Program-made: the position numbers and the translations under genes | Shown here: positions 33,436 through 47,291 of the stretch, in pieces | Position numbering within the stretch: the first letter of the stretch is position 1 | How the letters are laid out: each line of letters begins with the position of its first letter | Origin: Sporosarcina sp. FSL K6-1522 | Lineage (GTDB): Bacteria > Bacillota > Bacilli > Bacillales_A > Planococcaceae | Reading direction: 5' to 3' | Length of the DNA: 64,000 nt | Assembly (NCBI RefSeq): GCF_038622445.1 | Contig: NZ_CP152019.1 | Coordinates: 62,001-126,000 of the forward strand | Notes under the pieces: model-generated | What the model was told of the DNA's origin: nothing | Database searches by the model: none | Seen by the model: only the letters and a program-made list of their open reading frames with translations

Positions 33436-34038
33436 TTATGCAACCTTAGAAAAATTCGGTTCATCCATTTTAAAGCCATTCAGCCTTGCATCGACTTGAA
33501 ATGAGTACGTCGAAATCGCCCGCTCATAGCGCTTTTGCATAAGAAGCGCTTGGCGATCAGCGGCTGACGGTAGATCCATCGATGCAACTTGTGCCGCCTC
33601 AGCCTGTTCTCGCGCAACCGCAATCTCAGCTTCAGATTGTGCAAGCTTACGCAAAGCAATTTGCGTTTCCGTCTGCATGATCTTCGCTGATGCTGTCGCT
33701 GCTAGCTGATAATCTGCTGTCGTCGGTTCCGGCACAGAAATGGCTTCCGTACGCACACCCCGCCAAAGATCGATTGTTTCTTCAAGCGTCTTACCAATCG
33801 GTAACGCGACTTGCTTCATTTGCCCTGCGCCCAGCTCTCGCAATTCCTGACCTTTCGCCTGAACAACTTCTGGTTCGTCTTTGCCTGTCAATAAAGCTTC
33901 CAGTTTCTCTAGCATTTTCTGGTTTTGCCCATTATATTGGACATTGCGATTATAAGCACTTTCGGCATTTCTACGCCGAATGGTATCGTAGCGTTGCAAC
34001 TGATCATTTGCGGTAGCATATGTCAAAACTGCATTCAT
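33436..34038 (-). CDS. Helical hypothetical protein with SprA-related-like C-terminal region
   Basis: A 200-residue protein, mostly alpha-helical with many Gln, Ala and Glu residues and no signal peptide. By eye, the stretch TIDLWRGVRTEAISVPEPTT followed by ADYQLAATASAKIMQTETQI recalls the region after the HExxH part of SprA-related putative metalloproteases (an arginine-rich helix, a Pro-containing turn, then an Ala/Gln helix). The HExxH part itself is absent, so no protease activity is expected. The N-terminal part has QNQKMLEKLEALLTG. A GGAGGTG precedes the ATG. Monocistronic. The family link is tentative. Confidence 0.6.
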   Translation of the reverse strand: MNAVLTYATANDQLQRYDTIRRRNAESAYNRNVQYNGQNQKMLEKLEALLTGKDEPEVVQAKGQELRELGAGQMKQVALPIGKTLEETIDLWRGVRTEAISVPEPTTADYQLAATASAKIMQTETQIALRKLAQSEAEIAVAREQAEAAQVASMDLPSAADRQALLMQKRYERAISTYSFQVDARLNGFKMDEPNFSKVA

Positions 34039-36604: not shown

Positions 36605-36642
36605 CATGTACAGAGTACAATGAAAATTACAAAATAACACTG

Positions 36643-36648
36643 TATAAT
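36643..36648 (+). promoter_or_regulatory. Candidate -10 element for the regulator-peptide operon
   Basis: A perfect TATAAT, with a poor -35 (ATGAAA at 36620-36625) at 17 bases. The weak -35 could mean that an activator is needed. Start site near 36655. Confidence 0.35.
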
Positions 36649-36686: not shown

Positions 36687-36714
36687 AACCTTTGCCATAC
36701 GACAAAGGTTTTAT
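36687..36714 (+). other. Stem-loop in the regulator leader
   Basis: AACCTTTG (36687-36694) pairs with CAAAGGTT (36703-36710), followed by TTAT. A second 8-bp pair, AGGTCTTT (36649-36656) with AAAGACCT (36678-36685), lies just upstream. Possible attenuation or RNA structure; the T run is short. Confidence 0.4.
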
Positions 36715-36787: not shown

Positions 36788-38062
36788 TTGCATATTGGAA
36801 AAAGATTGAGAGAAATACGAACGATTCGCGGAATGACGCAAGCAAAAGTAAGCAAAGACATCATTTCCGCCCCTCATTACAGCAATATCGAAGCGGGTAT
36901 TTTCACCCCGTCACAAGATACATTAACGTTACTTGCCAAACGCTTAGCTGTTCCAGCCACATACTTCACACATAGCTACGCGGAAGATAAATTCATGGCC
37001 GAATTATTGCAGCAATATGAGGGTATTTTAGAAAAAGAAGATGTAGCTCTAGCAAACGCTTTTCTTAAAGAACATGAAAAAAGCTTCGACTATATTCAAT
37101 CATTACATCAGGAGTTATGTTTTAAGTTATTGCGCTGTCTGGCACTTTTTAAAGAAAAAGAATTTATAGCTTTCCAGCAGCTATATGAGGAGAAGATTCT
37201 CTCCTATGTAGACTTTGACATCTTGCATACTTTAAACATTCGCCTCCAAGAAAAATATGATTATATTACCGGTCTATATCACTATATAATTGGTAATCAC
37301 AATGATAGTATAGAACTTTTTTCAAAAGTATTAAAAATCAGTGAAGACCCTTTGCTTCATGCAAGGCTCACGTTCAATATTGCATTAGCTCACTATCGCC
37401 TTTTTCACTATACTGAGGCATTGCATTATAGCAAAAAGGCTAGGGACTGTTATTTGCATTTGCATAACTGGGATAAGACAGCTGAATGCTATAATTTGAT
37501 GGCTGTACTTTATAAAGATACTAATCGTTTAAGTACTGCAGAGTTATATATTCATAAAGGGATACAGATTTTGAATGATAAGACCATAAGAATATATACA
37601 ATGCTTTTACATAATCTTGCGCTCGTTTATCAAGAACAAGAGCAACATAAAAAGGCATTAGAAACTATTGAGAACTGTATCGCTATAAAAAAAGAATACC
37701 ATTCAGGTACTCTCTTTAGTAGCTATCGGGAGAAATTGAATATCTTATTAAGTCTGAAAGATGAGACTGAAATTACACGTACCCTTGAATATGCTCGTCT
37801 CGTTTGCAAGTCTTCATTAGAAGAATGTCATTTGCGAGTCATTGAAGGCAAACAGCACTTTCAGCACCAGCGATATGATGCATACGAAAAATGTCTCCTA
37901 CAGAGTATCGACTATTATCTCAAACACGAACAGTGGGAATATCTAAAGTGTTTACCAGAAGAGTTAGCTACTTATTACGCCAAGAAAAAACATTATAAAA
38001 AAGCTTATGAACTAAATTTAACGGGTTTACTCGCATTTAAAAAAATATATAGGGAGTTGTAA
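36788..38062 (+). CDS. HTH-TPR quorum-sensing regulator (NprR/PlcR-like, RRNPP family)
   Basis: A 424-residue intracellular peptide-responsive regulator, by architecture. Residues 4-60 are an XRE-type helix-turn-helix (GKRLREIRTIRGMTQAKVSK; SAPHYSNIEAG). The rest is alpha-helical with TPR-like units, for example FNIALAHYRLFHYTEALHYS, CYNLMAVLYKDTNRLSTAEL and LLHNLALVYQEQEQHKKALE. This is the layout and length of NprR and close to PlcR and AimR. TTG start at 36788 with AAGAAGG upstream. The stop is 5 bases before a gene encoding a repeated peptide, so they form one operon. The coding sequence looks more AT-rich than its neighbours. The bound ligand is inferred, not shown. Confidence 0.85.
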   Translation: MHIGKRLREIRTIRGMTQAKVSKDIISAPHYSNIEAGIFTPSQDTLTLLAKRLAVPATYFTHSYAEDKFMAELLQQYEGILEKEDVALANAFLKEHEKSFDYIQSLHQELCFKLLRCLALFKEKEFIAFQQLYEEKILSYVDFDILHTLNIRLQEKYDYITGLYHYIIGNHNDSIELFSKVLKISEDPLLHARLTFNIALAHYRLFHYTEALHYSKKARDCYLHLHNWDKTAECYNLMAVLYKDTNRLSTAELYIHKGIQILNDKTIRIYTMLLHNLALVYQEQEQHKKALETIENCIAIKKEYHSGTLFSSYREKLNILLSLKDETEITRTLEYARLVCKSSLEECHLRVIEGKQHFQHQRYDAYEKCLLQSIDYYLKHEQWEYLKCLPEELATYYAKKKHYKKAYELNLTGLLAFKKIYREL

Positions 38063-38067
38063 TACAC

Positions 38068-38286
38068 ATGAAAAGCTTTTTAGTTACACTTATGCTGGGG
38101 GCAACTATCTCAACCATTAATCCCAATAGTGAAGTCGGCGACCCACATAGCGTCTTTAATCCTAATAGTGAAGTTGGCGACCCACATAGCGTCATTAATC
38201 CTAATAGTGAAGTTGGCGACCCGCATAGCGTCATTAATCCTAATAGTGAAGTTGGCGACCCGCATAGCGTCAAAGACGAAGCTTAA
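38068..38286 (+). CDS. Putative multi-copy pheromone precursor
   Basis: A 72-codon gene. Residues 1-17 form a short hydrophobic leader (MKSFLVTLMLGATIST) resembling an export signal. Residues 18-68 are four direct copies of NPNSEVGDPHSV, separated by one variable residue (F, I, I), and the protein ends KDEA. The repeat period is 39 bases. Every base difference between copies within the 12-residue core is synonymous. AGGGAG lies 12 bases upstream, inside the end of the regulator gene. The location and layout match cognate peptide genes of RRNPP receptors (papR, nprX, phr, aimP), but with four copies instead of one. Proteolytic processing to a short active peptide is inferred. Confidence 0.82.
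   Translation: MKSFLVTLMLGATISTINPNSEVGDPHSVFNPNSEVGDPHSVINPNSEVGDPHSVINPNSEVGDPHSVKDEA
38119..38271 (+). repeat. Four tandem 39-base units within the peptide gene
   Basis: Units at 38119-38157, 38158-38196, 38197-38235 and 38236-38271 (the last counted without its variable codon). Differences: CCC/CCT and GTC/GTT distinguish unit 1, CCA/CCG separates units 1-2 from 3-4, and the 13th codon varies. The repeats are contiguous, with no spacers. Confidence 0.95.
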
Positions 38287-38298
38287 AAACCCAAAACA

Positions 38299-38337
38299 CC
38301 CTCACACCAACAATTCATCTGGTGTGAGGGCATTTTT
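38299..38337 (+). terminator. Terminator of the regulator-peptide operon
   Basis: Perfect 11-bp stem CCCTCACACCA/TGGTGTGAGGG with a 10-base loop and a T5 run, 13 bases after the peptide stop codon. Confidence 0.92.
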
Positions 38338-38899
38338 AATTTTCATCCAAAGCGTCTTTAGACAAATCTTGACTCATTTCCGCATACTTTACGAAGACCC
38401 TTGCGAGCTCGCGTAGGCGATTGTGTACGTCGTCGTCGATAATCGTGTTATCTTTATCGAAATGACTCATATGTGTATAGACATAGTTCGGTGTCACGAG
38501 ACAGCGGAAGTAGTCCAAAATGGGTTTCAGCTGGTTTTCGATGACTAGGTGATGCTGGTATGTACCGCCATTTGCAACGATCGATACCGGTTTGTAACGC
38601 ATCGTGTGCGGGTGTAACATATCAAATGCGTTTTTCAACACACCTGGGATGGACCCTTGGAAGATGGGCGACGCTATAATATAACCGTCTGCCTCTTCAA
38701 ATTTTTTGACAAGCTGCTGCATATCATCATTGTATTCACCTAACGGGCGACCATCAACAATCTGATGTGTGTAATCTGCGAAATTCAACAATTCCAGTTC
38801 AAATCCGCAACCGGTTTCTTCGATATATTGCTGCACTACTTCAAGAACCACGCCTGTTTTGCTGCCGATAATGGTCCCGTCCACAAACAAAACTTTCAA
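38336..38899 (-). CDS. NADPH-dependent FMN reductase-like flavoprotein
   Basis: A 187-residue flavodoxin-fold oxidoreductase. KVLFVDGTIIGSKTG at the N-terminus is the FMN phosphate loop, and ADGYIIASPIFQGSIPGVLK near residue 75 and VANGGTYQHHL follow the SsuE/azoreductase pattern. The substrate is unknown. I use the TTG at 38899 with GAGGGGG 8 bases upstream; the frame extends back to 38983 through a hairpin and is not family-like there. Convergent to the regulator-peptide operon and sharing its terminator region. Confidence 0.8.
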   Translation of the reverse strand: MKVLFVDGTIIGSKTGVVLEVVQQYIEETGCGFELELLNFADYTHQIVDGRPLGEYNDDMQQLVKKFEEADGYIIASPIFQGSIPGVLKNAFDMLHPHTMRYKPVSIVANGGTYQHHLVIENQLKPILDYFRCLVTPNYVYTHMSHFDKDNTIIDDDVHNRLRELARVFVKYAEMSQDLSKDALDEN

Positions 38900-47112: not shown

Positions 47113-47291
47113 ATTATGCGCGCTTCGACATCGGCTTTGATCGGTTCGCGCTCGGCATTGCCCGCTTCGACGACGGCTTTGATCGGTTCGTGCTCGGCAT
47201 TGCGTGCTTCAACGGCGACTTTGATCGGTTCGCGCCCGGCATTGCGCGCTTCGACGACAACTTTGATCGGTTCACACTCGCCTTTGCGCGA
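47113..47291. repeat. Tandem array of 42-base units
   Basis: Four units (47113-47156, 47157-47198, 47199-47240, 47241-47282) and a partial fifth, with core GCGCGCTTCGACGACGGC followed by TTTGATCGGTTCGCG. The period is divisible by three, so both strands stay open: ALIGSRSA-type repeats on plus, EPIKVVVEARNAE-type on minus. Neither frame has a ribosome binding site at a sensible start. Same core as the short copies at 11240 and 24500. Confidence 0.85.

Follow-up and report, generated by a model that had tools for sequence, protein, structure and literature searches.

What is a small gene doing directly behind a regulatory gene if it spells out the same short peptide four times? The question was raised by a locus of Sporosarcina sp. 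FSL K6-1522, lying in a 64,000-nucleotide stretch of contig NZ_CP152019.1 (positions 62,001 to 126,000; hereafter the window), for which an original prediction had proposed a quorum-sensing receptor with a four-copy pheromone precursor. The locus is very probably a two-gene signalling cassette of the RRNPP type, in which the pheromone segment of a secreted precursor was amplified in tandem from one copy to four. Computed here were the genes, the repeats, the predicted fold, the likeness of the repeat unit to the single-copy region of relatives and, by parsimony, an expansion on one branch. The predicted 424-residue regulator, 5-base gap (38063-38067) and 72-codon peptide gene with its leader and tail were all recovered:

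36788-38062, plus strand: receptor/regulator gene, TTG start, 424 aa; XRE-type helix-turn-helix (HTH, ~residues 1-65) and tetratricopeptide repeat (TPR) superhelix
38068-38286, plus strand: pheromone precursor gene (putative), ATG start, 72 aa; position and core homologous in relatives
38068-38115, plus strand: hydrophobic leader MKSFLVTLMLGATIST, from simple-rule leader analysis
38116-38154, plus strand: unit 1, INPNSEVGDPHSV, from repeat comparison
38155-38193, plus strand: unit 2, FNPNSEVGDPHSV, from repeat comparison
38194-38232, plus strand: unit 3, INPNSEVGDPHSV, from repeat comparison
38233-38271, plus strand: unit 4, INPNSEVGDPHSV, from repeat comparison
38272-38286, plus strand: tail KDEA and stop codon, from the reading frame

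The precursor holds four exact copies of NPNSEVGDPHSV, as predicted, and the real unit is one residue longer: (I/F)NPNSEVGDPHSV, 13 residues or 39 bp, repeated four times before KDEA. TRF gave the array a period of 39, 4.1 copies, 95% matches and a score of 281, the highest of five tandem-repeat rows within the 64 kb. From unit to unit, 4 of the 13 codon positions vary: three changes are synonymous and one is an I/F exchange outside the core EVGDPH, which occurs four times. The V|I/F-N junctions between units contain no basic residue. The array might instead be a repeat protein or antimicrobial peptide placed behind the regulator by chance; small secreted tandem-repeat proteins have several possible roles, and the precursor gave just a sub-threshold Pfam match, to Hexapep (E 0.0019, 18.2 bits vs. 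a cut-off of 27). We regard this as highly improbable: at 15 of the 20 other genus loci, a single copy of this core follows the receptor in the corresponding position.

It is because relatives carry the core once at the same position that the peptide reading gains its decisive support. With a receptor threshold of E 1e-40 or better, the receptor was present in 19 of 68 genus genomes, the window's included, at 21 loci, 20 of them beyond the window (near-identical loci were kept separate; L039 and L040 have the same peptide). A leader peptide lies just downstream at 19 of these 20 loci; the 19 peptides, 18 of them distinct, are free of internal exact repeats at the tested lengths of 3 to 5. The motif [DE]VGxPH occurs once in 15 of the 19 (EVGLPH, DVGLPH, DVGDPH, DVGRPH, DVGPPH, EVGPPH); three have a looser core (EVSPPH, KVTEPH, NVPDPQ) and one has none. 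Both motifs were picked post hoc, after the peptides had been viewed, and when the window unit was shuffled 200,000 times, the stricter one arose in just 137 cases. For L032, L033 and L078, an internal ATG was taken as the peptide start. Outside the genus, 7 of 10 loci in Evansella, Litchfieldia, Salipaludibacillus and Bacillus have a repeat-free peptide, and 6 of 6 tested peptides fit a looser pattern (e.g., DVPRPH, NIPDPH). Nine further family loci have repeat-free peptides, with neither core in the five tested. Taking a multi-copy propeptide as a precursor with at least two predicted mature peptides, the window gene encodes one: four units, with a core that corresponds to the single-copy pheromone region of relatives. 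Two records are unusual in themselves. NZ_JADHDX010000021.1 (L063) is titled Arthrobacter beigongshangensis, yet its receptor and flanks match Sporosarcina, a problem of record naming. The predicted protein P0021 seemingly fuses the start of a homologue of window gene 33436-34038 to the TPR part of a receptor, which may reflect rearrangement or misassembly of that locus.

The adjoining regulator has the features of an RRNPP receptor, and the precursor is probably cognate to it. Pfam profiles matched both expected domains (HTH_3, 1.2e-9, residues 7-60; TPR_12, 8.6e-13), while NCBIfam gave nothing above cut-off and PHROGs returned generic regulators and phrog_5208 (unknown function). The protein, at 424 aa with TPRs, falls within the 250-500 aa that PMC10075063 gives for RRNPPA receptors; it has an N-terminal HTH, and its small neighbour falls within 10-100 aa (72 aa, 5 bases downstream). 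Against solved chains, a profile of 23 homologues scored PlcR at 6e-12, RapF at 4.8e-11, Rap105 at 4.9e-9 and NprR at 5.2e-7, and three engineered or consensus TPR proteins outscored all four. The AlphaFold model was confident (pLDDT 92.6, pTM 0.86), and ranks 1-11 of its VIA-align comparison were occupied by RRNPP receptors only, among them RapI (30.1), apo NprR (29.5), a Rap that PMC3601965 identifies as RapJ, together with the competence and sporulation factor (28.8), Rap3T (27.8), NprR-NprX (27.4), RapF (27.3), Rap105 (26.6) and RapH (25.0). Since the best non-RRNPP TPR protein, LGN (24.5), tied with RapH, the lead of the family is real yet modest.

The predicted NprR architecture stood as far as layout and fold are concerned: the model is nearly collinear with NprR (65-418 on 67-418) and has the NprR-subfamily order of HTH, Rap-like helical region and TPR array in ~423 aa. 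Close kinship did not stand, as the sequence link is remote. None of the four Spo0F contacts of NprR is kept (D107, Y118, E188 and Y223 correspond to S105, R116, H191 and H226), and NprR orthology and NprR-like bifunctionality were rejected from the residue comparison. The NprX-contact and lock residues R126, Y165, W167, H201, N306, D309 and R343 correspond to K124, G169, H171, R204, G307, F310 and V351, R126 to K being the sole conservative change. Contact and lock positions were taken from PMC4970707 and mapped by sequence alignment of remote homologues, in which column errors are possible; the NprR fragment was numbered via two published residues, and the remaining 14 of 16 checked residues match the published letters. 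With both signatures changed, the receptor therefore has the NprR layout without the known Spo0F or NprX signature. A conserved Asn is retained: N276 aligns with RapF 227 and NprR 275 and is N in 21 of 23 homologues (sequence alignment). In RapJ, N225, presumably the equivalent of RapF 227, holds the peptide backbone (PMC3601965).

The comparison concerns a single, conserved chromosomal site. The cassette lies between a topoisomerase-like (topB-like) gene upstream and a flavin mononucleotide (FMN) reductase-like gene downstream, both on the minus strand and named by inspection. The FMN-reductase gene keeps its place behind the cassette in the closest five relatives (L032, L033, L034, L064, L036), where it is 83-94% identical to the window's. 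Receptor identity to the window is 41-54% over the full length in four of the five, and by blocks in all five it is 58-66% in the HTH and 29-61% in three later blocks. Joint evolution of receptor and pheromone at a higher rate than that of the flanking DNA would predict such divergence, although the receptor may instead have been replaced by transfer. In the receptor tree, whose midpoint root serves for drawing only, the window groups with a sister set of six, namely L032, L033, L034 and three proteins of unseen context; support is 96/88 for the whole clade and 94/89 for these six, and L064 and L036 fall outside. Parsimony puts a single repeat expansion on the branch leading to the window. The genome, one 4.39-Mb contig, has a single receptor match at E 0.001 and a single precursor match. 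Carriage by phages or plasmids was unsupported: no relative was found in 50,697 phage records or, searching with two short peptide patterns only, in viral contigs, and 7 of 72,556 plasmid records matched; the best of these is 28% identical, and its peptide has no repeat and ends in DITPPH.

Whether all four units matter is a separate point. The cassette may be of the RRNPP type with just the last (or first) unit released, the other copies being selectively neutral products of slippage in a 39-bp, in-frame repeat. We consider this a real possibility, though a rather doubtful one. A 39-bp unit is divisible by 3, so that copies can change freely in frame, the unit DNA is nearly identical, as recent slippage leaves it, and the active RRNPP peptide is typically C-terminal (PMC11343458). 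However, three of the four variable codons are synonymous and the sole replacement lies outside the core, hinting weakly, as changes are few, that all units are kept, and the duplicated Phr pheromones Phr105 and Phr3T are produced, released and active according to the same source.

The leader raises a further alternative, namely a decaying or non-exported reading frame, where export was lost after amplification and the regulator now works without a peptide. By simple rules, the leader has one positive charge, an 11-residue mean Kyte-Doolittle hydropathy of 2.25 and a single, poor signal peptidase (SPase) I-type site (TIS|TI); seven relatives have +2 or +3 and means of 2.05-3.35. In addition, the peptide ATG lies 5 nt past the receptor stop, but in many relatives the two genes share a 4-nt overlap. 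Decay is nevertheless improbable: the frame is intact over four units, with the I/F change only and no stop or frameshift, a ribosome-binding-like GGGAG lies upstream, and a terminator-like repeat is retained:

38286-38343 (arms 38286-38309/38320-38343), strand not assigned: inverted repeat directly behind the precursor stop, probable terminator of the two-gene unit

On the plus strand, CATTTTTAA comes after the stem. The predicted terminator was thus found as an inverted repeat, but the scan assigned the stem to the minus strand, and sites in the region were about equal to shuffles (2 vs. a mean of 1.5).

If the tandem-pheromone cassette operates as its parts suggest, the pheromone segment would be the core EVGDPH inside the 13-residue unit INPNSEVGDPHSV. 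The leader would export the precursor, and extracellular proteases would cut between units. Thermolysin-type neutral proteases prefer to cut before I or F. A neutral metalloprotease of this type would suit the V|I/F-N junction. NprE has a part in peptide maturation (PMC11343458). The pieces would be re-imported by an oligopeptide permease (SBP_bac_5 gave 14 matches) and bound in the TPR groove of the adjoining regulator, with a resulting change in how the regulator binds DNA, its own promoter included. We infer export, cleavage, import, binding, autoregulation and a greater signal per transcript. Two upstream sites may belong to this promoter:

36687-36710, strand not assigned: operator-like palindrome AACCTTTGCCATACGACAAAGGTT (TTTG-N8-CAAA) upstream of the receptor, with a putative function
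36620-36648, plus strand: promoter-like site ATGAAA-17-TATAAT, a consensus match only

The promoter call is weak because 11 such sites were found in the region vs. 8.0 expected in shuffles. The palindrome, with arms AACCTTTG-N8-CAAAGGTT, is likely the autoregulation site of the window receptor. Of 39 related receptor loci selected for comparison, 21 have TTTG-N8-CAAA within 300 nt upstream, a count that overstates independence because the loci are related; 200 dinucleotide shuffles gave a mean of 0.77 and a maximum of 4 loci, and spacers of 3 to 14 other than 8 gave 0-2 loci each. Both arms are altered jointly in L032 (AATCTTTG/CAAAGATT vs. AACCTTTG/CAAAGGTT), one arm alone is altered in L034, and at many loci the match is confined to the inner four bases per arm. 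The palindrome is also found in Litchfieldia (L070) and Evansella (L074, L079).

Several observations weigh against the cassette reading. No link was found between the palindrome and the receptor protein itself. Genome-wide, CTTTG-N8-CAAAG occurs at 9 sites, the window's included, scarcely more than the 7 in a reversed control, so no regulon was found; two of the eight other sites were inspected, one lying within argH and the second just within the start of a frame's longest reading, so that with a later start codon the site could still lie upstream. Most peptide-contact residues of NprR are not retained in the window receptor. At one of the 20 genus loci (L046), no peptide is visible downstream of the receptor. 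Among the five syntenic relatives, the exact core is present in L033 and L034 alone; L032 (NVPDPQ) and L064 (KVTEPH) have looser cores and L036 none. The window leader has no A-x-A site and a charge of just +1; A-x-A is also absent from some relatives' leaders. Finally, a word-limited search of 5.8 billion proteins found no precursor homologue at E <=0.01, and strain-level variation in copy number is therefore not visible. A database protein, P0001, on a 1,958-base contig, is almost identical to the window receptor, differing at one or more residues (E replaces K in SKKARD), and hints that a near strain has been sequenced.

Repeated precursors are recurrent in the receptor family, as a class-level survey and locus L021 indicate. 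The survey returned 106 places, of which 3 were already in the set, 16 were partial matches and left out, and 87 were surveyed (L090, L094, L095 and L098 duplicate earlier loci; at most 4 candidates were scored per genome). By our own rules, 47 of the 87 loci have a candidate leader peptide, and exact internal repeats occur in 8 of these 47; a poly-Thr open reading frame, L126, was excluded from the multi-copy count. In L101 (1051-1482, minus strand, genome G612), an XRE-TPR receptor is followed by a 143-aa peptide that contains SDNSPGIKSL nine times. This exceeds the 6 and 8 copies of PMC9765709 and PMC11343458 and is arguably a more remarkable case than the window's; a single protein search for homologues of this peptide gave none. 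L114, L131 and L133, of one genus, have SEPDHPKIV three times, with units identical across three genomes, and two copies are present in L093, L130, L136 and, shorter, L140. L021 (genome G047) has GLSHDFPD four times in a frame that follows its receptor at a distance of 115 nt; this receptor is ~23% identical to that of the window, and a family search around L021 found one genome. Despite unrelated cores, the eight spacings in L101 and the three in L021 are all 13 residues, as in the window; other pitches are 9 (L114), 12 (L136), 17 (L093) and 22 (L130), and a pitch of 13 in three of seven precursors may be chance. Elsewhere in the window, a 42-bp tandem repeat (47117-47290, 4.1 copies) has frames reading EPIKVVVEA. 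Outside the window, the genome has a similar repeat, PRKVVAEAS, at ~1900-2300 of L087, with argH on one side and an enoyl-reductase-like gene on the other; the two are perhaps a dispersed repeat family.

The receptor with an adjoining multi-copy precursor, as originally interpreted, is supported by fold and conserved core. The implied novelty, that well-known precursors carry one copy, is not: up to 6 identical copies per propeptide, NprR subfamily included, are reported in PMC9765709, where Table 3 lists 17 of 17 atypically large NprR-type propeptides as repeated, and up to 8 are cited in PMC11343458, which poses as an open question why some bacteria repeat a pheromone in one precursor. Neither these two papers nor the large surveys PMC10075063 and PMC12700828 contain the word Sporosarcina, and no publication on this receptor clade was among the matches listed for Sporosarcina quorum sensing or RRNPP. 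Like the window, the multi-copy RRNPPA propeptides (AimR, NprR, PlcR and Rap subfamilies; Phr105, Phr3T) have tandem identical segments beside a TPR receptor; the window differs in having repeat-free syntenic relatives that show the expansion directly. NprR-NprX of the Bacillus cereus group (4GPK, 5DBK; PMC4970707) shares 14% identity by structural alignment and has another peptide core. AloR-AloP of Paenibacillus polymyxa likewise has an HTH-TPR receptor followed by a small secreted-peptide gene, a likeness of layout, with downstream frames of 32-50 aa and no precursor repeat seen in the text available from PMC7425212. In Bacillus Rap-Phr systems, Rap has no HTH, whereas the window receptor has one. 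The yeast alpha-factor precursor is unrelated. It carries tandem pheromone copies in one secreted precursor, with dedicated protease sites in its spacers, whereas no basic residue separates the window units.

Multi-copy signal genes are thus already known, and the value of the locus is the one-to-four comparison at a fixed site together with a defined core. Tentatively, and with the odds against it, pheromone copy number could be an evolvable gain control in this receptor clade, and the shared 13-residue pitch a processing ruler, not chance. If so, slippage would add or drop an in-frame 39-bp unit, shifting the signal dose per transcript and leaving receptor and promoter untouched. With a fixed site, repeat-free relatives against four units and a core known by comparison, dose per transcript becomes directly testable, and [DE]VGxPH would be the pheromone core for a receptor clade of Sporosarcina.
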